Shown here piece by piece: positions 1,347 to 13,466 of a stretch of 64,000 nucleotides of DNA. The notes beneath the pieces are model-generated. The model had not been told where the DNA came from. It worked only from the letters and a program-made list of their open reading frames with translations, and did not search any database. Made by a program: the position numbers and the translations under genes. The first letter of the stretch is position 1; each line of letters begins with the position of its first letter. Origin of the DNA: Alteromonas sp. M12. Its GTDB lineage: Bacteria > Pseudomonadota > Gammaproteobacteria > Enterobacterales > Alteromonadaceae. Where the stretch lies: positions 3,100,001-3,164,000 of the forward strand of contig NZ_CP144164.1 of NCBI RefSeq assembly GCF_037478005.1, in the 5' to 3' direction.

Positions 1347-4112
1347 TTGCAGCTAAGTATAAACGACAAACGGGCCTATCTACAGGTTACACTTGCCAAT
1401 GGCCTGCGAGTATTATTAGTGAATGATGCTGATTGTCGAAAATCTGCAGCAGCAGTGTGCGTTCAAGCCGGACATTTTGATGATCCGGCTGATATTCATG
1501 GCCTAGCCCATTTACTTGAACATATGCTATTTAATGGCAGTGAGATGTTTCAAGATGCAGACAACTTAGATAAATTCCTTTCGCCCCATAGCGGCAGTGT
1601 TAACGCTTATACCGGCACGGAATTTTCGAATTACCATTTCGATGTATCACATACATATTTGCCAGAGGGGCTGCAGCGATTTGCTGACATGCTGTTTAAC
1701 CCGCTATTTAGCAAAAAGGCAATCGACAAAGAAATAAAAGCCATTGATGCTGAGTTCAACTTAAAAATACATGACGATTTGCGACGCCTCTACCAAGTAC
1801 ACAAAGAAACATGCAATCCAAATCACCCATTTAGTAAATTTTCAGTGGGTAACGGAGAAACGTTCTGCGCGCACTCCATAGAAAAAATTCAAAGTGCGCT
1901 AATTGAGCTGCATAAAAAGCACTATATACCCAACAATATGACCTTATGTATTGTCAGTAACATGTCTTTAGAAGAACAACAAAAATGTGTAGAAGACAGG
2001 TTTGGCACAATCAAATCTGGTAGTGATTTTGAGCGCCCCACGCCACCACCTTTGTATTTGCCAAACCAGTTGGGTGTCAAAATAAGTATTAAACCGATCA
2101 AAGATGCGCGCCGCTTAATAATTAGTTTCGCATTACCAGACATGCAACATTATTGTGATTCAAAACCACTGGAATTTATTAGTCATTTATTAGGGGATGA
2201 GGGTAAAGGTAGTCTACTGACGCATTATAAGCGCATGAATTGGGCGACTAACCTAAGTGCTGGAGGCGGCATCAATGGAACTGGCTTCAAAGATTTTAAT
2301 GTCAATTTACAACTTACTGAAGTCGGCAAAGACAATATTTCAGAAGTGCTAAATAGTCTATTTTATTACCTCAAGCTCATTCGCAATAATGCACTTGACG
2401 AATGGCGCATTAAAGAGAAAGCCATTTTAGGAAAATTGGCTTTTGACCACATCGAAAATGCAAAGCCCTTAGATGACGCAGTACAATTTTCCAATTTAAT
2501 GTTTCACTACCCTGAAGCCGATATTTTAACAGGTGATTATTTAATTACCGATTTTTCAGTGCAACCAATTGAGACTTGCTTAACTTTCATGAGTCCAGAG
2601 AATATGCGCTTGAAGTTAATCAGTAAAGACGTGCAAACAAACAAAGTTGCACGTTGGTACGAAACCCCTTATGCGATTGAATCTATAGATGGGAATTTAT
2701 TAAAAGCACTGTCGACACCTAGCGACCTCGATGACGTTCATTTGCCTCCCCCCAATCCATACATAACAGAATCCTGTGAACTGGTAGACGTGGATGACAA
2801 ATATCTCTTACCTAGCAGAATTTTGCATGAGCAAAACTTACAGGTATGGTTTGCGCAGGATTCACTATTTAGTCAACCCAAAGGAGATTGCTTTATTTCG
2901 TTTGATTGCGAGGCGGTTACCCAAGGGGCCAAAATTTCGGCCTACAAGCGTTTATGGGTTGCATTGATGGTGGAGCATTTAAATGACCAATTTTACCATG
3001 CCGGTGTTGCAGGGTTGCATTATCATTTGTATGCGCATCAAGGTGGTTTTTCTATTCACACAAATGGTTTTTCGCACAACCAACTTGAACTCAGTATAAA
3101 TATTTTAAATCAAGTGATGGCCGACGTTGATCTAAAACCGCTGTTTGAACAGGTAAAACACAAACAACTTCAAAACTTACAAAATTCACTATTAAATAAA
3201 CCGATTAACCGTTTGTTTTCGCGGCTTTCAGGCTTAATTCAGCGCTTTACTTATGCGCCACTAGAATTATTACCACTGGTTGAAAATGCCACAATAGAAG
3301 ATATCTACTGGCTCAAAGAGCAATTATTTAAAAATTACTCGGTTGAGGCGTTTGTGTTTGGCAATTGGACAATGCAACAATCTAAGCAGTTTGCAAGTAG
3401 ATTGAAAGATATGCCTAAACCTAGTCAAACGGGAAGTCAAATAAAGCGTGAAGTAGTTGATTTAAAGCATACTATTCACTATAAAAATCAGGTAATGAGT
3501 CAACACCCAGATTCTGCAGTAGTGCTTTATTTACAAACACCTACAGCCTCAATTAAAGATGTTGCGTTAACCATTTTAGTGGAACAGTTATTGGCCTCAC
3601 CCTTTTTTCATGAAATTCGAAATGAAAAACAATTAGGTTACTTGGTTGGCAGTGGTTATTTACCCCTTAATCAACACCCCGGCATGGTTTTTTATGCACA
3701 ATCACCTAATTTCAGCGCGAAACAAATTTTGATTGAAATACAGAGTTTCCTTGCACAAATCACTGCAAGCATAGATGACTATGAAGAAGTTTGGTCGCAC
3801 GTTAGAACCAGCGTGTCTAAACAGTTGCAAGGTAATGACACCAATCTAACCGCTAAAGCACAAAGGTTATGGCTTGCCATTGGTAACCAAGACCTTGAGT
3901 TTAATTTACAGACAGCAATAGCAAAAGCCCTTTTTTCATTAACCTTTGACGACATCAAGACCTTCTGTCAACTACTGATAGCGCCTGCAAATGTTGGGAC
4001 CCTCGTACTATATTGTTGTGGAGATAAAAATAAGCCGGAAGATATTCCAGCAGATGGCAAAGAGATCGATGATTTAACGGCGTTTAAACATCAAGCAAGT
4101 TACATTATCTAA
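1347..4112 (+). CDS. M16 family metallopeptidase, insulysin/pitrilysin type
   Basis: A 921-residue full-length insulinase-fold zinc protease with four M16 half-domains. The inverted zinc motif HLLEH is at residues 55-59, and Glu136 in IDAEF follows at the 77-residue spacing known for the third ligand in insulysin. The C-terminal half keeps the inactive M16_C repeats, including HEIRNEKQLGYLVGSG, typical of insulysin and protease III. Known members degrade small peptides inside a closed chamber. Unlike E. coli protease III there is no signal peptide (MQLSINDKRAY), so a cytoplasmic location is inferred. The start is TTG, supported by AAGAAGGTG seven bases upstream and no better downstream site. 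Confidence 0.9.
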   Translation: MQLSINDKRAYLQVTLANGLRVLLVNDADCRKSAAAVCVQAGHFDDPADIHGLAHLLEHMLFNGSEMFQDADNLDKFLSPHSGSVNAYTGTEFSNYHFDVSHTYLPEGLQRFADMLFNPLFSKKAIDKEIKAIDAEFNLKIHDDLRRLYQVHKETCNPNHPFSKFSVGNGETFCAHSIEKIQSALIELHKKHYIPNNMTLCIVSNMSLEEQQKCVEDRFGTIKSGSDFERPTPPPLYLPNQLGVKISIKPIKDARRLIISFALPDMQHYCDSKPLEFISHLLGDEGKGSLLTHYKRMNWATNLSAGGGINGTGFKDFNVNLQLTEVGKDNISEVLNSLFYYLKLIRNNALDEWRIKEKAILGKLAFDHIENAKPLDDAVQFSNLMFHYPEADILTGDYLITDFSVQPIETCLTFMSPENMRLKLISKDVQTNKVARWYETPYAIESIDGNLLKALSTPSDLDDVHLPPPNPYITESCELVDVDDKYLLPSRILHEQNLQVWFAQDSLFSQPKGDCFISFDCEAVTQGAKISAYKRLWVALMVEHLNDQFYHAGVAGLHYHLYAHQGGFSIHTNGFSHNQLELSINILNQVMADVDLKPLFEQVKHKQLQNLQNSLLNKPINRLFSRLSGLIQRFTYAPLELLPLVENATIEDIYWLKEQLFKNYSVEAFVFGNWTMQQSKQFASRLKDMPKPSQTGSQIKREVVDLKHTIHYKNQVMSQHPDSAVVLYLQTPTASIKDVALTILVEQLLASPFFHEIRNEKQLGYLVGSGYLPLNQHPGMVFYAQSPNFSAKQILIEIQSFLAQITASIDDYEEVWSHVRTSVSKQLQGNDTNLTAKAQRLWLAIGNQDLEFNLQTAIAKALFSLTFDDIKTFCQLLIAPANVGTLVLYCCGDKNKPEDIPADGKEIDDLTAFKHQASYII

Positions 4113-4380: not shown

Positions 4381-7300
4381 TTGAGACGATTATTTCAGTC
4401 TACTGGGCTAATCGCATTAATCATGCTTTTGTCCTTATCCTATTCTAAATCCTACGCCAATGTAGCAGATATTCAGCTTCGTAATTTCTCGGTGCAACAA
4501 GGCCTGTCTCAAAGAACCGTTTTAGATATTATTGAAGATAAAGATGGATACATTTGGTTCGCCACAGTCGATGGCTTGAACCGTTTTGACGGCACATATT
4601 TCAAACAATATACCCCTAAATTACCAGACGAAAAACAGTTTCCCATTGAAGTGATTCGAAAATTATTTATCGATTCCAACAATAACCTATGGTTTTCAAG
4701 TATGGGGGCAATTGCCAGGTACCTACCGGAAAAAGATGATTTCCAAGTGTATGGCCGAAAGAACTCTAATTTAAAATCCAATATATTTTGGGCTATTGGT
4801 GAAACCAAACAAGGTAAATTACTTTTTTCAGGTGAAACATCACTTTACGAATATAACCCAGAATTAGATGACTTTACTGACGTTGAATTTAGTAACGGTG
4901 CTAAATTAAATGACTCAGTAAGAACTATTTACGCTGAAGACGATATTATTTGGTTAGGTACTGAAAAAAGCGGCATTTATGCTATCGACCCAAAAACTAA
5001 CTATTTATACAATTTACAAGAGAAAAACCCCTGGAATATTCAGTTAAATGCGAAAACCCTGTTTGATATAGTAAAAATTGATAACCAGTATTGGTTAGGT
5101 ACTTCGGTTGGCGCTATTGTTTTATCAGAAGATTACCAGATAGAGTTACAACTGGATGCCTTGCGAAATGATCAACTGAAAATTATTAACAACACTGTTC
5201 GTACCATAGTACAAAGCGATGATGGCAACGTTTGGTTAGGTACCACAGATGGTATCAGTATTTATGATAGTAGAGAGCAGTCAGTATTTTCCATTGACCG
5301 AGATAATGGAAAATACATAGGGTTAATTAACACAATCATTATTAAAGCTTATAAAAGTAGTAATAATTCAATTTGGTTTGGTACACATGCGGCAGGTCTT
5401 TTCCAATATCATAAATTGTTTTCCGCGATTAAACATTTCAAAATAGTTAATGATAATTTGCCGGGCATTAGTAATAGTGTCTGGGGGTTTGCAGATAACG
5501 GTGATAAAACTATATGGATAGCTCCGTTAAGTGGAGGAGTCAGTTTATATAATATCCAAACAGGTGAATTTAGACGCTTTTTGCAAGAATCCACTACTCT
5601 CGTCTGGGATGTGGAGGTTGATGCAGAAAAACGCTTGTGGCTGGCCACTGATACCGGTATTCATGTTTATGAATTCAAAGATGACAATTTAAATCATGTA
5701 AAAACGTTATTTTCAGGAACACCGATAACCGAATTAGAGCCGATGCAAGAGCAGTTCTGGGTAAAAGACATTAAGGAGCATTCTTTTTTAGTCGATGCTA
5801 AAGACCTAGCCAAAACACCAACAGAAATATCTTATAAAGGCTTGAATAGTGGAGTGATAGCCCAACTGCTTTTAGATAGCCAAAACAATATATGGCTAAA
5901 AACTGATGCAGGCATTGTTGTTACCGATCAAAACTACGCAAACTCTACTCGTATCTTATTACAAAACAATTTAGACGAAGACCAACCCGTGGTTTATAAC
6001 GTTCATGAAACGGCTGATGCGTTTTGGGCGTCCACAGGAAAACACGGAATTTTCAAACTTGATAAAAAAACATATGCCCCGATAGAACAGATCCACCCCC
6101 GTGGATATAACGTGAGAGGCATTGTCGTAAATTCCGTACTAGATACCCAAAATCAAACATCGGTATGGCAATGTAGTCAATCAGAAATTTGGCAAATTTC
6201 ATTGGAAACAGGTGAGATATTACAGTTAATTCCTCGACAAACTTTGGATTACAATGATTTGAACCAAGGCGCCACCTTGATGACAGCAGAAGGTATGTTG
6301 TTTTTTGGTGGCACAGATGGCTTCCATGTTTTTAATCCCCAAAAACTCACAGATTTAACGCTGGGAAATAGCGGAACAGCATCCCCCTTACCAACCTTAA
6401 GTCCGCCCAAAATCACTGAATTATGGATTCACAATAAACCTGTAGCTATCGGTGTTGAAGGCTCGCCATTAACTAAACCCTTGAGTTTAACTAGTTCTAT
6501 CTCTTTGTCTTACGAAAACATTCCATTTACTTTGTATTTCGATCATATTAATTCGTTGTATCAAAATGAGTTGAACTATCGTTATCGATTACTGGGTTGG
6601 CGAGATACCTGGATTGAAACCGGCAATAATGGAAGGTTTGCTTCCTTTTCCATTGAAACCTATGGAAACCATGTTTTTGAAGTCCAAGGACGTATTGGTG
6701 ATGGGCCTTGGTCCAAGACCGCAAGACTTAACATAATGATTTCACCGCCGCTTTGGCTAGATACACCAGCCATGGCGTTGTATGGATTGTCCGCCATTCT
6801 TGTATTATTGCTGATGTTACGGCAATACAGGCGTAAACTGGCGGTACAAAATGCCATTAAAGAAAGTGAAGAACGTCTAAAGCTTACCCTTTGGAGCAGT
6901 GGAGATGAACTCTGGGATTGGGATGTTTACCGAGGGCAGGTATATCGTGCCAATACATGGGGAACGATGGATTTTCCGCAAGACGACATTCGTTCGAACA
7001 GTTCCTATCAAGCCAATATCCATCCCAATGATATGTTACGGGTTCAAGAAGCGCTAAAGACCCACATCGATAAAAAATCGGACTATTTCCAAGTTACCTA
7101 TCGAGCTCGCACATTTAAAGGTGATTGGGTTTGGATTTTAGATAGAGGGATGATTGTCAAGCGGGATAATAATGATCAGCCGATTAGGATGACTGGTACT
7201 CTTAAGAATATCAGTCATTTAAAACAAGCTGAAGAACAGCTTAAACTTTACGAACGTTCAATTGAAACCATTTCTGACGGTGTGTTTATTGCCGATACAA

Positions 7301-8907
7301 CCTTCCGCTTTATTTCAGTTAATCAGTCTTATTGTAATTACACCGGTGAAACCCGTGAGCAGGGTTTAGCTAGCTATCTTAAATTCAATCAATACCCGGA
7401 AGCTTTCACCGAGGAAGTGAAAAAAGCACTGCGTCAAAAAGGCAATTGGAATGGCGAAGTTGAATCTAGACGCGCCAATGGCGAACGCTATGAAATGGAA
7501 TTGAATGTCGATGCGATCCATGGAGAAGATGGCAAAACAACTCATTATGTGGGTGTATTTTCGGATATCACTTCTCGTAAAAGCACCGAAAAAGAATTGT
7601 TGAAATTGGCCAATACTGACCCACTAACAGAAATGCCCAATCGATCTTTTTTCCAAGCTAGCCATCACAACCTAGTGCGTAAAGATGTGCCCCATGCGTT
7701 AGTGTGTTTAGACATGGACAACTTCAAAAAAATCAATGACTCTTTAGGTCACCAAACCGGTGACATTTTGATTAAGCAAATTGGTAAAAGGCTGCAAAAA
7801 ATTACCGGCACCAATGCAACATGTTACCGCTTAGGCGGCGATGAATTCAGTATTCTAGTCGACCGCGAAGAAGATATGCAGCGCATTAACCATTATGCCC
7901 AGCGTATTTTAGATCAGATGGCCCACCCGTTTTTGATTAACAAACAAGAATTTGTTTTAGGGGCAAGTGTTGGTATCGCTTTCTATCCTGAAGATGGTAC
8001 TTCAACTCAAGAGCTGTTAAAAAATTCTGATACTGCGATGTATTTTGCCAAAAATGCTGGCGGCAACAAATACCAATTCTTCAGCGGTGAAATGAACCAA
8101 AATGCAGTTCGCCAATTACAAATCGAAAACCTTATCCGCTATGGCTTGAAAGATGACTTGTTCACTGTTTTCTATCAACCTAAAGTTGATATCGCCACCG
8201 GCAGACTTGTAAGCATGGAAGCCTTAGTGCGTTTTGAACACCCCGACAAAGGTATTGTCAGCCCAGCTCAATTTATTCCCTTAGCAGAAGAAACGGGTCA
8301 AATCATTGACATTGGCGAGCAAGTACTTCGCAAAGCCTGTGAAGATACTAAACGTTGGGTTTCACAAGGGTTATTCACTGGGCGTGTAGCAGTGAATATC
8401 TCGGCTCGACAATTTGAATTGCCGGATCTTGATGATCGTATTTCCCGTATATTACAAAAAGTAGGCTTATCACCGCTCCATTTAGAGTGTGAGATAACGG
8501 AAGGCACGCTAATGCAAAATCCAGAGCAAGCCTTGCAAATGATGCAAAGATTGCGTGAGAAGGGCATACACCTCGCGTTAGACGACTTTGGCACCGGCTA
8601 TTCATCTTTAGCATATTTGAAGAAGTTCCCGCTCAATACGCTGAAAATAGATAAAGCTTTTATTGATGACATCGCTATTAGTAGCGTAGACAAACATATG
8701 ACCGCAGCAATAATTAATATAGCCCACAATCTAGGGTTAAAAGTAGTTGCTGAGGGCGTAGAACAAGAGAAACAGCTCGAAATTCTGAGCCTTTATGATT
8801 GTGAAATGTTGCAGGGCTACTTATATAGTAAACCCTTAAATGCCAAAAAGTTTGAAAAACTGTTGGCCGAAAATGTCCACATTAGCCAATTAATCGGCAC
8901 GAATTAA
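4381..8907 (+). CDS. two-component-regulator propeller / PAS / PAS / GGDEF / EAL signalling protein
   Basis: A 1508-residue membrane c-di-GMP enzyme. Order: signal peptide 1-26; periplasmic propeller repeats ~30-690 with many WLGT/WFGT-DGI motifs; Y_Y_Y domain ~715-790; membrane helix ~795-818; PAS_3-type domain ~833-945; second PAS ~957-1070; GGDEF domain with intact GGDEF at 1152-1156; EAL domain with EAL at 1280-1282 plus NISARQF, CEITEG, DDFGTGYSS, LKIDK and LQGYLYSKP. Both catalytic centres look complete, so cyclase and phosphodiesterase activity are both possible. Propeller sensors of this type usually pair with histidine kinases and often sense glycans; here the output is c-di-GMP. The TTG start has ATAGGTGA upstream. 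It could feed FlrA, whose FleQ/FlrA family binds c-di-GMP, but that link is inference. Confidence 0.92.
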   Translation: MRRLFQSTGLIALIMLLSLSYSKSYANVADIQLRNFSVQQGLSQRTVLDIIEDKDGYIWFATVDGLNRFDGTYFKQYTPKLPDEKQFPIEVIRKLFIDSNNNLWFSSMGAIARYLPEKDDFQVYGRKNSNLKSNIFWAIGETKQGKLLFSGETSLYEYNPELDDFTDVEFSNGAKLNDSVRTIYAEDDIIWLGTEKSGIYAIDPKTNYLYNLQEKNPWNIQLNAKTLFDIVKIDNQYWLGTSVGAIVLSEDYQIELQLDALRNDQLKIINNTVRTIVQSDDGNVWLGTTDGISIYDSREQSVFSIDRDNGKYIGLINTIIIKAYKSSNNSIWFGTHAAGLFQYHKLFSAIKHFKIVNDNLPGISNSVWGFADNGDKTIWIAPLSGGVSLYNIQTGEFRRFLQESTTLVWDVEVDAEKRLWLATDTGIHVYEFKDDNLNHVKTLFSGTPITELEPMQEQFWVKDIKEHSFLVDAKDLAKTPTEISYKGLNSGVIAQLLLDSQNNIWLKTDAGIVVTDQNYANSTRILLQNNLDEDQPVVYNVHETADAFWASTGKHGIFKLDKKTYAPIEQIHPRGYNVRGIVVNSVLDTQNQTSVWQCSQSEIWQISLETGEILQLIPRQTLDYNDLNQGATLMTAEGMLFFGGTDGFHVFNPQKLTDLTLGNSGTASPLPTLSPPKITELWIHNKPVAIGVEGSPLTKPLSLTSSISLSYENIPFTLYFDHINSLYQNELNYRYRLLGWRDTWIETGNNGRFASFSIETYGNHVFEVQGRIGDGPWSKTARLNIMISPPLWLDTPAMALYGLSAILVLLLMLRQYRRKLAVQNAIKESEERLKLTLWSSGDELWDWDVYRGQVYRANTWGTMDFPQDDIRSNSSYQANIHPNDMLRVQEALKTHIDKKSDYFQVTYRARTFKGDWVWILDRGMIVKRDNNDQPIRMTGTLKNISHLKQAEEQLKLYERSIETISDGVFIADTTFRFISVNQSYCNYTGETREQGLASYLKFNQYPEAFTEEVKKALRQKGNWNGEVESRRANGERYEMELNVDAIHGEDGKTTHYVGVFSDITSRKSTEKELLKLANTDPLTEMPNRSFFQASHHNLVRKDVPHALVCLDMDNFKKINDSLGHQTGDILIKQIGKRLQKITGTNATCYRLGGDEFSILVDREEDMQRINHYAQRILDQMAHPFLINKQEFVLGASVGIAFYPEDGTSTQELLKNSDTAMYFAKNAGGNKYQFFSGEMNQNAVRQLQIENLIRYGLKDDLFTVFYQPKVDIATGRLVSMEALVRFEHPDKGIVSPAQFIPLAEETGQIIDIGEQVLRKACEDTKRWVSQGLFTGRVAVNISARQFELPDLDDRISRILQKVGLSPLHLECEITEGTLMQNPEQALQMMQRLREKGIHLALDDFGTGYSSLAYLKKFPLNTLKIDKAFIDDIAISSVDKHMTAAIINIAHNLGLKVVAEGVEQEKQLEILSLYDCEMLQGYLYSKPLNAKKFEKLLAENVHISQLIGTN

Positions 8908-8928: not shown

Positions 8929-9255
8929 TATCTTCTAGGTATCACCAACCCGCTCGCTTGCTGACTAACAGTCAAAATTCCAACGCCAGAATATCGACTT
9001 TTGATATTAGTTGTGGAATTGACGTCCAATGATGAACTCTTAATTTTTAAAAAATCCTGCAAAAACAACAAAAATCCCAAACCATTGAATTATAGGGTTA
9101 ATTTATCTGAATGTGAGGATTTCAACGCTCTAATCGGTAAAATATTTCAGCAAAAGTTAAAGTTGGCATATTCCTCGCAGATATATAAATGATTGACAAA
9201 AAATTGTCAGTTATAAAATTAAAATAATACAGAAGTATCAAAGAGGAACCGAAAG
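8908..9255 (+). other. intergenic region before the repeat-peptide gene
   Basis: 348 bases. It holds an unsupported 63-codon open frame (9001-9192, TTG start, no ribosome site), the palindromic TTGACA element at 9194-9209, an A/T-rich -10 zone (around 9213-9228), and a GAGG ribosome site at 9242-9245 for the gene at 9256. Nothing else was recognised. Confidence 0.5.
9194..9209 (+). promoter_or_regulatory. palindromic operator-like element over a -35 box
   Basis: TGACAA-AAAA-TTGTCA is a perfect 6-4-6 inverted repeat. Its left arm makes a consensus -35 hexamer, TTGACA (9193-9198). A TAAAAT lies downstream at a short 15-bp spacing; other A/T hexamers are available. The arrangement suggests a repressor site covering the promoter of the repeat-peptide gene about 50 bases downstream. 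The binding factor is unknown. Confidence 0.45.
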
Positions 9256-9486
9256 ATGTTAAAAGCTTATGCTGTAGCACTAATGCTAACTACGACACCT
9301 ACAAGCGCAAACTTAGATGGTGCCAATATAACCGAACAGCAAAAAACTGTATCGACTAGTTCAAACAAAGTCCTTAAGCCTGGTGGCGGTATTGGATTCG
9401 ACACTAACAAGGTTCTTAAGCCTGGTGGCGGTATCGGATTCGATAATAATAAGGTTCTTAAGCCTGGTGGCGGTATTGGTTTTTAA
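9256..9486 (+). CDS. small secreted protein with three NKVLKPGGGIGF repeats
   Basis: A 76-residue product. Residues 1-18 (MLKAYAVALMLTTTPTSA) read as a short signal peptide, with a plausible AxA-like cleavage after Ala18. Residues 19-36 are a polar linker, and 37-76 consist of three near-identical 14-residue units NKVLKPGGGIGFD(T/N), the last ending at F76. Codons within the units vary only at a few third positions. A ribosome site (GAGG), a dedicated promoter palindrome and a strong terminator make it a self-contained transcription unit. I do not recognise the family. Candidates are a multi-copy peptide precursor (signal or modified peptide) or a small repeat matrix/surface protein. No maturase, protease or exporter gene is adjacent. 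Confidence 0.75.
   Translation: MLKAYAVALMLTTTPTSANLDGANITEQQKTVSTSSNKVLKPGGGIGFDTNKVLKPGGGIGFDNNKVLKPGGGIGF
9364..9486 (+). repeat. tandem 42-bp coding repeat, three copies
   Basis: Copies at 9364-9405, 9406-9447 and 9448-9486 (the last lacks the final codon pair and runs into the stop). The second and third copies are nearly identical; the first differs mainly at synonymous positions. In-frame repeat length (14 codons) allows copy number change by slippage or recombination without frameshift. Confidence 0.9.
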
Positions 9487-9530
9487 GTGCTAATGCATTG
9501 GATTTTAGAATATGACAAGGACAGTATTTG

Positions 9531-9560
9531 AAAAAAGAGAGGTTATCCTCTCTTTTTTTT
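9531..9560 (+). terminator. rho-independent terminator of the repeat-peptide gene
   Basis: AAAAGAGAGG - TTAT - CCTCTCTTTT stem followed by more T residues, 45 bases after the stop codon. The A-run on the other side makes it potentially bidirectional, also serving the convergent gene that ends at 9566. Confidence 0.85.
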
Positions 9561-9565
9561 ATGCC

Positions 9566-9763
9566 CTACACTCTTAGCAGAGAATTATTAAAACCACGAG
9601 ATTGACGCAAAGCGACTCGTTGAGAAATTGAAAACATTGGTAAGATCATGGGACCAAACATAAGCCCTGCTAACGCCCACTTTTTAGCTGGTAACGCACT
9701 TTTGAAAGCTTCAACATAGTAATATACGCTAAACACTAAACAACTTATTATCGCTAAAATCAT
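9566..9763 (-). CDS. small membrane protein of unknown function (65 aa)
   Basis: Starting at the ATG at 9763 (MILAIISCLVFSVYYY) the product has two hydrophobic segments, residues ~1-16 and ~29-44 (WALAGLMFGPMILPMF), separated by a basic stretch, then a polar C-terminus. This start is preferred over an upstream TTG at 9808 because TAGGCGG lies seven bases before it and a TATAAT box overlaps the TTG. It is convergent with the repeat-peptide gene across the shared terminator. Family not recognised; the KKWALAGLMFGP pattern resembles small two-helix inner-membrane proteins common in Alteromonadales. Confidence 0.6.
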   Translation of the reverse strand: MILAIISCLVFSVYYYVEAFKSALPAKKWALAGLMFGPMILPMFSISQRVALRQSRGFNNSLLRV

Positions 9764-9797
9764 TTTCGCCCGCCTATGCATAGTTTCAATCGCGCAA

Positions 9798-9803
9798 ATT
9801 ATA
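9798..9803 (-). promoter_or_regulatory. -10 box for the 65-aa membrane protein
   Basis: A perfect TATAAT on the minus strand 34 bases upstream of the ATG at 9763, giving a leader of about 25-28 bases. No good -35 hexamer is seen at 16-18 bp. Confidence 0.35.
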
Positions 9804-9846
9804 CTCAAGCAAACTTACAAAACTAGTAGTTTTAGAGGTTTCAACT

Positions 9847-9955: not shown

Positions 9956-12145
9956 TCAATAGAAGGTTTCATCATTATCCGCCATCTCAACCAGTTTGGT
10001 TGCTGGAAGATATCTATCACCGAATTTACTGCTGTAATATTGTAAACGCTCGACAACAAATTTTGCGCCAAGCTTATCCATGTAATGGAAAGGACCACCA
10101 AGAAATGGCGGAAAACCAATACCAAAAATAGCGCCAATGTCACCATCTCGTGGATTACGAATCACACCTTCATGCAAACACATTGCCGCTTCATTTAGCA
10201 TTAACATTACGCAACGTTCAGATATTTCAACTCCGCTCATGCGTTGTTCTGGTTTTATACCCAAAAGCTCATAGACACTTTCATCAACTTCTTTTCCCGA
10301 ATTCTTTCCGGAATAAGCGTAAAAACCACGTTTGTTCTTTTTGCCTTTACGATCATCAGCAAGCACCTTATCGAATGCATCTGCTGACTTAAATCGGTCA
10401 CCAAATTGAGCCATTAAAATAGGTATTATTTTCGTGCCTACATCTATACCAACTTCATCTAACAACTTAACAGGCCCCACTGGGAAACCGAATTTAACTA
10501 AGGATTTATCAATATGCTCAATTGGCTCACCGGATAAGAGTATATTTGCCGCTTCATTCATATGAGGAGCTAGAATACGGTTGACGTAAAAGCCAGCTCC
10601 ATCTTTAACCACAATAGGTGTTTTACCCTGTTTACGAGCCAGCTCCACCGTAGTTGAAATGGTTTTATCTGAGGTTTTATCATGGGCAATAACTTCAGCA
10701 AGCGGCATCTTGTCTACCGGTGAAAAGTAATGCAATCCAATAACTTGTTCTGGTCGAGCAGCCTTTTCAGCTATTTGAGCAATGGGAATTGACGATGTGT
10801 TAGTGGCAAATATCGTATTTTCATTACAATTAGCCTCTACATCATTGACCATGGACTGTTTTAACGCTAAGTCTTCAAAAACGGCCTCAATCACTACATC
10901 GGTATCTTTAAATCCTGCGTAGTCAACACTCCCAGTCAATAAAGACATTTGCTGCTGCATTTCAGACTTTCGCATAAACCGGCGTTTAACCTTTTTATTT
11001 AAAAGATCAAAGGAGTATTTCATCGCATTAGCGACTCCCTCAGACCGGATATCTTTAATTCTGGCGGGTAACCCTGCTTTAGTAGCGGTAACAAACGCAA
11101 TACCACCGCCCATCAATCCACCACCTAAGATACCCACTTTTTTCAACTGTCCAGGCTCAACACCGCTAACACCTGTTTCTTTTTTCATTTCCGTAGTAGC
11201 GAAAAAGATATTACGCAGTTGTTCAGATTCAGGGGTCATAACCAAATAAGCAAAGTTCTTAGCTTCTACCGCCATCCCTTCCTGTATGCCCTTATCAAAG
11301 CCTGTTTCAATACAATCAATAATTAATTCAGGAGCGGGATAATTGCCCTTAGTTTTACTTATGGTTTGTTTTCTTGCTTGTTTGAAAAGAGTATTGCGTC
11401 CAATTGACGTTTTTTCTAAGAATTGGCTCGCTAAATTCATTTTAACGGGTGTGCGTTGCGGTTTTGACTTCAACGCCATTTCTGTGGCCACCTCGAGCAG
11501 AATCGAACGTGGAACCATATCATCAACAATACCGTATTTTAGTCCTTGCTTAGCTCGTACTGCAGCACCAGTGAGCATCATTTTCATCGCTTGCTGGATA
11601 CCAATTAATCGCGGCAAACGTTGCGTGCCGCCGCTTCCTGGAAGCAACCCAAGTTGCACCTCAGGCAAGCCCATTTGGGTTATTTTATCGTCAGTACATA
11701 CTCTTGAATGACAAGCTAAGGCCAACTCAAGACCGCCACCTAGTGCCGGACCATGAATTGCAGCGACAAAATGCACTCGCATGTCTTCTATACGCTGAAA
11801 GATTTGTTGTCCGCCTGTGGCAATCGTCTCGACATCCTGAGCAGTCTCACAAGAGGCTAACATACTAATATCAGCACCCGCTATAAAGGAGTTTTCTTTG
11901 CCACTGACAACCACCACCCCCTTAATTTTACTATTGCTTTCGATTTCATCTAGCATTACTGAAATTTGATCTGCAAATTCCATTTTTAGCGTGTTCATCG
12001 ACTCGCCAGGCACATCAATAGTTAATATAGCAACGCCATTGTCTTGTAGATCTAGAGTAAAGGCGCTATTTTGCTGAGATACTTTAGTCTCTTCAGATAC
12101 TTGGCCCGCTTGAGTTAGTTCAGTTTCTTTATTCGCATTATCCAC
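9956..12145 (-). CDS. fadJ: fatty acid oxidation complex alpha subunit FadJ (enoyl-CoA hydratase / 3-hydroxyacyl-CoA dehydrogenase)
   Basis: Multifunctional beta-oxidation enzyme of 729 residues. N-terminal crotonase domain (~30-220) with HGPALGGGLELALAC and the acidic-residue motif LPEVQLGLLPGSGGTQRLPR; then the NAD-binding domain with VGILGGGLMGGGIAFV, catalytic His in IGLHYFSPVDKMPL, and the C-terminal dehydrogenase domains ending in the FGIGFPPFLGGP region. Size and pairing with fadI point to FadJ rather than FadB. The start chosen is GTG at 12145, preceded by AAGGGG and lying 11 bp after the fadI stop; the longer frame from a TTG at 12172 would overlap fadI. Works with FadI in a complex. 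Confidence 0.93.
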   Translation of the reverse strand: MDNANKETELTQAGQVSEETKVSQQNSAFTLDLQDNGVAILTIDVPGESMNTLKMEFADQISVMLDEIESNSKIKGVVVVSGKENSFIAGADISMLASCETAQDVETIATGGQQIFQRIEDMRVHFVAAIHGPALGGGLELALACHSRVCTDDKITQMGLPEVQLGLLPGSGGTQRLPRLIGIQQAMKMMLTGAAVRAKQGLKYGIVDDMVPRSILLEVATEMALKSKPQRTPVKMNLASQFLEKTSIGRNTLFKQARKQTISKTKGNYPAPELIIDCIETGFDKGIQEGMAVEAKNFAYLVMTPESEQLRNIFFATTEMKKETGVSGVEPGQLKKVGILGGGLMGGGIAFVTATKAGLPARIKDIRSEGVANAMKYSFDLLNKKVKRRFMRKSEMQQQMSLLTGSVDYAGFKDTDVVIEAVFEDLALKQSMVNDVEANCNENTIFATNTSSIPIAQIAEKAARPEQVIGLHYFSPVDKMPLAEVIAHDKTSDKTISTTVELARKQGKTPIVVKDGAGFYVNRILAPHMNEAANILLSGEPIEHIDKSLVKFGFPVGPVKLLDEVGIDVGTKIIPILMAQFGDRFKSADAFDKVLADDRKGKKNKRGFYAYSGKNSGKEVDESVYELLGIKPEQRMSGVEISERCVMLMLNEAAMCLHEGVIRNPRDGDIGAIFGIGFPPFLGGPFHYMDKLGAKFVVERLQYYSSKFGDRYLPATKLVEMADNDETFY

Positions 12146-12155
12146 GTAATTCCCC

Positions 12156-13466
12156 TTACTCTGTTTCAACAATCATTGCAGCACCAAGGCCACCTGCAGC
12201 ACACGCAGTCACTAAACCTGCACCACCGCCTTTGCGGTTAAGATCATTTAGCATTTGAGTGATCATCCGCGTACCGGTTGCTGCAAATGGGTGTCCGTAA
12301 GCAATTGAACTTCCCATTTGATTGAACTTGTCCATATCTATTTCACCAGTGGCTTTACTTCGCCCTAGCTTTTCTTGTGCAAATTTGTCGCTTGCAAACA
12401 TTTTGATATTTGCCAGTGTTTGCGCAGCGAACGCTTCATGCATTTCTATTAATGTTAGGTCGTTTAAGGTCATCCCTGCTCTGTCCAATGCAATTGGTGA
12501 CGCATAAGATGGTCCCATCAACATATCTTCCCAAACGTCTATGGCAGCAAACGCATAACTACGAATGTACCCTAACGGTTTATAGCCTAATTCTTTTGCG
12601 CGGCTTTCCGTCATCATCACGATTGCAGATGCGCCATCGGTTAATGGTGTTGCATTGGCAGCGGTTACTGTACCGTGTTTTTTATCAAAAACAGGGCGAA
12701 GCTTGGCATAGCCTTCTAACGTTGAATCGAAGCGCACATTGTTATCTTTTTCCAATGCCCCTTTGTATGGTTCGGCGTAAGCTGTCATGACTTCATCGTC
12801 TAAAAAGCCTTCATTCCAGCTCTTAGCTGCCAAGGAATGAGAACGATGAGCTAAGGCATCTTGTTCCTGTCGTGAAATGTTATGGGTTTTAGCCATTTGC
12901 TCGGCTGTCTGTCCCATTGATAAACCAGTGGAATATTCAGCTACTGCGGGCGGAACAGGCAATAAATCTTTGAATCCAAGCTTTTTAAACACATTCCACT
13001 TCTGACCAAGTGTTTTGGTTTTTTGCAGATCGGTAAGCGCTCTAGCAAGAGGTTTTGAAACCCCAATAGGCGACACTGAAGTTGAGTCAGCTCCGCCAGC
13101 AATACCAACGGCGATGTTTCCTGCCATCATAGATTCAGCAATATTGACTGTGGCTTGAAAACTAGTCGCACAAGCTCTGGAAACGGAATACGCATCAGTA
13201 TGCACGTTCATGCCAGTGCCAAGTACAATTTCTCTAGCAATGTTTGGCGCTTCAGGCATTTGCACAACTTGGCCATAAACAAGTTGCTCCACTAAATTGG
13301 GATCCAAATTATTGCGTGTAATCATCTCGTTGACGACTAATTTCCCCAAATCAACAGCGGGTACGCCATGAAAATAAGTCGCCATTTTCGCAAAAGGAGT
13401 CCGTAGACCCGCCACTATAGCGATCCTATCGCCACTGCGAGTAGTAACTGTTTGTTTTGCTGACAT
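12156..13466 (-). CDS. fadI: 3-ketoacyl-CoA thiolase FadI
   Basis: From the ATG at 13466 the protein has 436 residues, the same length as E. coli FadI, and the acyl-accepting cysteine falls at residue 99 (VSRACATSF), matching the family position. The other thiolase motifs are present: [11 protein letters not shown] (catalytic His) and [13 protein letters not shown] (second Cys). It cleaves 3-ketoacyl-CoA to acetyl-CoA and a shortened acyl-CoA, acting with FadJ. The frame stays open 19 codons upstream, but GAGG eight bases before this ATG and the FadR-like site upstream favour the shorter form. First gene of the fadIJ operon. Confidence 0.93.

Follow-up and report, generated by a model that had tools for sequence, protein, structure and literature searches.

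A tandem-repeat peptide gene family beside a propeller-bearing c-di-GMP receptor gene in Alteromonadales, and its possible role as a signal

What is the role of a small gene that encodes three exact copies of a short peptide next to the gene of a large c-di-GMP-type membrane protein? The question is raised by a locus in the genome of Alteromonas sp. M12, within a 64,000-nucleotide stretch of DNA (hereafter the window; positions 3,100,001 to 3,164,000 of contig NZ_CP144164.1). Comparison with relatives shows that the peptide gene belongs to an undescribed family located on the downstream side of an orthologous receptor gene in Alteromonadales. The explanation that accounts best for the locus, to which we give slightly under an even chance, is that these genes encode a secreted, often multi-copy precursor whose C-terminal unit would be the ligand of the neighbouring propeller-type c-di-GMP receptor and would thereby set c-di-GMP. 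Its support is comparative: the family exists and keeps its place, sigma54 elements accompany it, selection acts on the unit at the protein level, unit and receptor diverge in a correlated way, and the peptide is absent where the propeller is missing.

The peptide gene (9256-9486, + strand) encodes a repeat-bearing, secreted-like product of 76 residues, and its ATG is preceded by AGAGGAACC. The product opens with a signal-like segment, MLKAYAVALMLTTTPTSA (9256-9309), which is the best-conserved part of the family, followed by a linker that is variable in the family alignment, NLDGANITEQQKTVSTSS (9310-9363). Three exact copies of the 12-mer NKVLKPGGGIGF then occupy 9364-9399, 9406-9441 and 9448-9483 (all + strand), with DT after the first copy, DN after the second and the stop codon directly after the third. 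An earlier note, made from the DNA letters, had described nearly identical units of 14 residues; the three copies stand, while the exact part is the 12-mer, with DT or DN between copies. The N-terminus looks like a short signal peptide, as do those of the family when judged by eye, suggesting that the peptide is exported; some signal-like segments in the family contain no basic residue (MLSSLILSL). The gene is present once in its own 5.01 Mb genome. An identical peptide is encoded by Aliiglaciecola lipolytica strain D2R05, and three named sister genomes (L002-L004) keep all 76 residues with 88-100% identity. Adjacent copies of the repeat DNA differ by three and four silent substitutions (seven in total) and by no replacement substitution in a codon count. 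This sister conservation and the purifying selection on the repeat indicate a real rather than a chance reading frame, as had been proposed, and frameshift decay of the repeats was not seen in the genes of the three sister species. Neither Pfam nor NCBIfam gave a match above the curated cut-off, in agreement with the earlier statement that no known family fits; Chlam_PMP was considered as an identity and rejected, its E value of 0.054 lying under the cut-off. At three loci from related genera (L261, L262 and L272) the last copies seem decayed by substitution (DTSRNEISI, DTSSNEISI and DDTNHNEVSI), which suggests that repeats may be lost, not only gained.

The unit had also been described as flanked by its own palindromic promoter and a strong terminator. 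The terminator is real: an intrinsic terminator at 9530-9559 (+ strand; fold of -16.2 kcal/mol, z -5.15) was overlooked by a simple terminator scan and detected by folding. The palindrome (9192-9211) is equally real, whereas its role as a promoter did not hold up, as a sigma54 (-24/-12) promoter element, TTGGCATATTCCTCGCA, with the spacing GG-N10-GC, precedes it at 9163-9179 (+ strand). A role as promoter or operator was rejected because this element lies upstream and because the stem sequence varies among loci while its pairing is kept; a promoter scan gave no sigma70-like site on the + strand at the palindrome region. The palindrome starts about 11-14 nt past the -12 element, which places it where the mRNA is predicted to begin, and there it would form a stem-loop (9189-9214, + strand; fold of -10.7 kcal/mol, z -4.03). 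Stems of six or more perfect pairs (Watson-Crick and GU, starting 9-18 nt past the -12 GC) occur at 70% of 60 loci of the MLKAYA type described below, compared with 18% of mononucleotide shuffles.

A published sigma54 consensus is TGGCACN5-7TTGCT (PMC12316311), and the window element is close to TGGCAC-N5-TTGC with GG-N10-GC. A strict element occurs downstream of the receptor gene at 124 of 137 loci, a set that contains 60 loci selected for peptide presence and three (L198, L202 and L205) added after the peptide had been seen; over the same loci, 100 mononucleotide shuffles gave a mean of 1.33 and never more than 4, and the reverse strand gave 2. At the 124 sites the ATG lies 38-98 nt (median 62) past the -12 GC. 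The pattern TTGGCAYNNNNNTNGCW has 28 genome matches, as against 7 for a reversed control pattern. All 18 genomes tested carry rpoN, the window's own and peptide-less ones among them, and loss of rpoN was therefore rejected as the cause of the peptide-less genera. Pairing of a CCTTATT motif with the ribosome-binding site in other genera was likewise rejected, because these bases precede the predicted transcription start.

Upstream of the peptide gene lies the candidate receptor gene (4381-8907, + strand), whose product of 1508 residues combines a periplasmic double beta-propeller and Y_Y_Y part, a transmembrane segment, two PAS domains, a GGDEF and an EAL domain according to Pfam, AlphaFold2 (AF2) and Foldseek. 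This agrees with the earlier description of the neighbour as a c-di-GMP-type protein with a large periplasmic domain. An AF2 model of residues 1-832 has a mean pLDDT of 85.7 (15 sequences), and its top Foldseek match is BT4663 (4a2l) of Bacteroides, so that the predicted periplasmic fold is the double propeller plus Y_Y_Y of an HTCS-like sensor. An M16 peptidase gene of the pitrilysin/insulinase type (1347-4112, + strand) precedes the receptor gene in the window, at 59 of the 60 MLKAYA-type loci and at 18 of 20 other loci tested; from its family, one might guess that this enzyme trims or clears the peptide. On the far side the locus is usually bounded by a fadJ-type gene (9956-12172, - strand, in the window), found on the opposite strand within 1700 nt at 75 of 78 loci with at least 2500 nt of sequence, and a thiolase gene usually follows fadJ at MLKAYA-type loci. 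The receptor gene adjoins 59 of 60 MLKAYA-type genes, and at the remaining locus (L143) it is cut by the contig end. Nine window neighbours were scanned (the M16 peptidase, the receptor, two small ORFs with no assigned family, fadJ, the thiolase, a MoxR-type AAA protein, DUF58 and DUF4381), and among these no exporter, immunity gene or modification enzyme was recognised. The window also gave no Rfam match. Between the peptide gene and fadJ lies a membrane-like ORF of 80 residues (9566-9808, - strand) with no Pfam match over the cut-off; two other loci (L111 and L151) have small ORFs of 98 and 92 residues, mutually alike, in the same place.

Single-sequence and profile searches define a family of mostly 44-58 residues with a near-invariant start (MLK[AE]YA[VI]A...P) and a variable tail, here called the MLKAYA type. 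Within the window's family, 82 of 395 genomes and 13 of 52 genera have it; 81 of the 82 carry a single gene and the other carries two adjacent copies. Across the order, E < 1e-10 was reached by the MLKAYA profile in 12 of 394 genomes, all of them from the window's own family (f1), and the other 64 genomes at E <= 1 had a best E of 0.0067 or weaker. One 48-residue protein with a near-identical start and one copy (P0004) comes from a 642-base contig. Loci were fetched for 60 of the 82 matching genomes, and the tail occurs once in 52 of these and two or three times in 8. The repeated tail is KVLKPGGGIGF or KALKPGGGIGF at four loci; the others are ALKPRGSIRT, GVRAGTVRF and, in two species of one genus, KGWKRGG/KGYKRGG. 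These are at least four unrelated tails, which implies four or more separate duplication events. In an uncultured Paraglaciecola (L015, at 5784 and 6001) the small gene as a whole stands twice in tandem, the two copies being near-identical, as it also does in genome G609.

Beside the same receptor in other genera, the only place where repeat-type peptides were sought, the units are quite different: GTRRGTIRI and ATRRGMIRI in seven copies each, GRKGIRI in four, GKRIKI in five, RKHVRV in three, TVNTRIRIK in fourteen and ISKPGGVIR in five, with ALPAIKVL in fourteen copies (L205) and AWRKIK in two (L198) in other families of the order. Over the family the copy number ranges from 1 to 14; at least two copies are present in 69 of 129 ORFs and a single copy in 60, and one of the 69 ORFs in the copy-number, selection and core counts, that of L259, was judged spurious. 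The repeated cores are lineage-specific, with 59 distinct cores among 63 loci (two were corrected by eye before this count, in addition to six corrected for the tests below), and the core coincides with the exact ORF end in 53 of the 63. In 58 aligned loci, R is the last residue but one in 55 and I the last in 53. Searching proteins with the repeat type brought up 15 relatives, one of them from Thalassotalea eurytherma. The L209-type precursor matches Pfam DUF4097 above its cut-off (37.4 against 22.9 bits), which hints that long spaced repeats may form a beta-solenoid. At 51 of 69 other-genus loci and at none of the 60 MLKAYA-type loci, using a pattern of our own, the repeat ORF is succeeded after 5-57 nt (8 nt in L209, 146 nt in L291) by another tiny ORF, of about 32-38 residues (MINLIKSLF...IEIKEMPASTWWN); the one member tested had no Pfam or NCBIfam match.

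Selection on the repeats was assessed by comparing adjacent copies in 68 genes. The repeated core shows 687 silent and 6 replacement differences, a replacement count that is biased down by defining the core as a repeated word, whereas spacers of equal length show 102 silent and 98 replacement differences in the same comparison. Silent divergence between core copies reaches 0.36 per site with the residues unchanged, which excludes recent DNA copying as the source of the identity. At the level of these codon patterns, the conserved thing is the protein product, not the DNA or RNA.

The association with the receptor was also examined at loci chosen by the receptor alone. Seventy-seven such loci were fetched, and three with less than 400 nt downstream (L222, L224 and L304) were dropped, leaving 74, with genus g26 represented by one genome (L181 and L226) out of many listed. 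A strict sigma54 site lies within 900 nt in 61 of the 74 and a peptide ORF in 65, and 59 of these 65 ORFs have at least two copies. The ORF begins 30-150 nt past a strict sigma54 site in 60 of the 65, and in the others (L213, L223, L280, L295 and L296) it is present with no strict site in that interval. Three loci (L198, L202 and L205) were kept from seven other-family loci after a peptide-like ORF had been seen, and they enter the 137-locus counts and other counts over 77 loci and stand outside the 74; the L202 ORF has 40 residues and no repeats, and gene order is not kept at L198. The four remaining other-family receptor-like loci (L199, L200, L201 and L203) have no such gene, and gene order is not kept there either, so that they may not be orthologues. 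Paralogous receptors of about 1500 residues have a repeat ORF at none of 11 loci, and a strict sigma54-like match is present at two of these (L192 and L194).

Losses on the receptor side were compared with losses of the peptide. Propellers have been lost from seven orthologues, drawn from seven genera and all next to the M16 gene (L182-L186, L206 and L226, the last keeping the Y_Y_Y part). In the stretch examined beside the receptor, neither a repeat peptide nor a strict sigma54 site occurs at any of these loci; one has a relaxed sigma54 match 1225 nt away (L185). Presence of the peptide thus differs between these loci (0 of 7) and the comparison loci (65 of 73), with a Fisher p of 2.0e-6 when loci are treated as independent. 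However, fadJ is not downstream in six of the seven, so that rearrangement could explain the missing peptide. There are also exceptions in the opposite direction. Seven full-length receptors among the 74 loci lack a peptide (in g3 L207 and L256-L259, five of five fetched; in g38 L281 and L286), L225 is cut by the contig end, and a 1305-residue receptor outside the 74 (L204) has none. The order M16-receptor-fadJ persists in genome G002 where the peptide is missing, and adjacency alone therefore proves little. The proteins of L181-L186, L206 and L226, in which the propeller is wholly or mostly lost and the cytosolic PAS, GGDEF and EAL parts are kept, are natural receptor-blind variants.

The two halves of the receptor diverge at very different rates: across six genera, identity is 36% in the periplasmic half and 81% in the cytosolic half, and 34% and 58%, respectively, in the paralogous receptor of the same six genomes. 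In Mantel tests with cytosolic distance as a control, the correlation between core distance and periplasmic distance is r 0.448 (p 0.0005, n 58), and r 0.370 (p 0.0005, n 54) once fadJ is added as a further control, while the reverse test, cytosolic given periplasmic, gives r -0.06; all correlation p values are from permutation, which ignores the tree. These tests exclude L198, L202, L205, L259, L293, L306, L208, L220 and L221, and receptor ORFs of 1400 residues or less. For 142 close pairs, the correlation is 0.41 with the periplasmic half as against 0.07 with the cytosolic half and 0.10 with fadJ, and genus g8 taken by itself shows a weak effect (r 0.197, p 0.0275, n 17). Control segments of the other-genus precursors give 0.209 (N-terminal segment) and 0.158 (linker). 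At 59 MLKAYA-type loci, the tail, taken as the last 13 residues, gives r 0.543, compared with 0.371 for the N-terminus and 0.387 for the linker, and it keeps 0.434 with both held. As the N-terminus and linker also correlate with the periplasmic half, common descent accounts for part of the signal, and it is the excess of the unit over these segments that we lean on in linking it to the receptor. On this evidence the neighbouring receptor is probably a partner of the peptide rather than incidental context.

Taken together, these observations are consistent with a mechanism in which sigma54 and an activator would switch on the peptide gene, the precursor would be exported by means of its signal-like N-terminal segment and then be cleaved into units. 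The active ligand would be the lineage-specific C-terminal unit, KVLKPGGGIGF in three copies in the window and elsewhere 1-14 copies of what is typically a stretch of 7-10 residues, often with [IV]RI at its end. The unit would bind the periplasmic propeller of the PAS-GGDEF-EAL protein encoded upstream, whose GGDEF-EAL half may then change c-di-GMP in one direction or the other; the number of copies would set the dose, and the unit, being specific to the species, would serve for self-recognition (a pherotype). The repeats and the species-specific units favour a signal that passes between cells over one that stays in the periplasm. The suggestion of the earlier note that the product could be a multi-copy precursor is in this way strengthened by comparison, through the 1-14 copies, the species-specific unit, the silent-only divergence in the window and the statistical link with the receptor. 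A broader proposal, which we put forward more tentatively and consider rather doubtful, is an order-wide Gram-negative pheromone system in which a sigma54-driven, secreted multi-copy precursor yields a species-specific peptide of 7-12 residues that acts through a co-diverging double-propeller receptor on c-di-GMP and would serve marine Alteromonadales as a signal of self in choosing between surface and free life. A counter-point to any peptide ligand is that the best structural match of the propeller senses polysaccharide.

The evidence for a link with the receptor would fit equally well if the peptide were a periplasmic connector, bound uncut by the receptor of the same cell and relaying sigma54-dependent physiology (motility, nitrogen) to c-di-GMP, with the signal confined to that cell. 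Small connector proteins are known to act on histidine kinases, most MLKAYA-type genes have a single copy of the tail, and no exporter was recognised among the scanned neighbours. However, amplification to 14 copies and species-specific units would be unexpected for an intracellular connector, and we regard it as unlikely. Similarly improbable is that old gene order alone made the two genes neighbours and that the target of the peptide lies elsewhere, for example in an envelope or matrix role as a structural repeat protein. The persistence of gene order in G002, the full-length receptors with no peptide and the DUF4097 match of one precursor agree with such a target, whereas the absence of the peptide where the propeller is lost and the excess correlation with the periplasmic half do not, and single-copy forms of about 50 residues are probably too short for a solenoid.

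Two further possibilities disregard the receptor. Many units are basic and amphipathic and have diverged rapidly, as would be expected of an antimicrobial or antagonistic cationic peptide diversified by arms races. This explanation is made quite improbable by the very low charge of the window unit and some others (KPGGGIGF, RPGNGIGF), by the scanned window neighbours, none of which was recognised as a gene for immunity or export, and by the occurrence of the MLKAYA-type gene once in nearly every genome that has it. An element acting as RNA or DNA (a regulatory RNA or titrating repeats), with an incidental reading frame, would be suggested by the 5' stem-loop and sigma54 promoter, since sigma54-driven small RNAs are known; this idea is strongly disfavoured, to the point of being hardly credible, by the great excess of silent over replacement differences in the core and by the lack of an Rfam match in the window.

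If the preferred reading of a secreted ligand for the neighbouring receptor is true, it would reveal a widespread Gram-negative counterpart to the peptide pheromones that are textbook knowledge for Gram-positive bacteria and fungi, with a tandem-copy precursor and a c-di-GMP receptor, and would change views of kin recognition and biofilms in marine bacteria. It would also put forward a class of candidate ligands for propeller sensors, most of whose known ligands are polysaccharides, and would offer dozens of natural ligand-receptor pairs that are testable with short synthetic peptides. Should the reading as a signal prove wrong, an explanation is still needed for a single-locus family that is under strong selection at the protein level and has a window member unmatched in Pfam and NCBIfam. 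A literature search, whose coverage left out most subscription-journal papers and preprints, found no description of the peptide family, and we know of no pheromone-like peptide/receptor pair of this kind in Gram-negative bacteria.

The likeness to peptide pheromones and their receptors is drawn by analogy, with no claim that the locus belongs to a family of that kind. Multi-copy pheromone precursors of the yeast alpha-factor type consist of a signal segment, a spacer and tandem short species-specific peptides in variable copy number, and the window family has the same arrangement with a signal-like segment. It differs in being bacterial and sigma54-driven, in having no known processing sites, and in its candidate partner, a propeller GGDEF/EAL protein instead of a GPCR. 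The cyanobactins, which are RiPPs with multi-core precursors, similarly combine a leader with several copies of a variable core, but here no modification enzyme was recognised in the window locus and an export-like signal replaces the recognition leader. On the receptor side, the predicted double-propeller and Y_Y_Y periplasmic fold is shared with the Bacteroides hybrid two-component sensor BT4663 (4a2l), which, unlike the window receptor, senses heparin/heparan sulphate according to its entry title and has a histidine kinase output; to our knowledge BT4663 has no partner peptide gene. In the Gram-positive agr and com systems, peptide pheromones are paired with receptors and a hypervariable sensor adjoins the signal gene. 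The locus described here resembles these in that the peptide gene adjoins a putative receptor and that the peptide and the sensor half diverge fast and in a correlated way while the output half is conserved; it departs from them in being Gram-negative, in the tandem copies, in having no recognised dedicated exporter or modification enzyme, and in an output that would be c-di-GMP.
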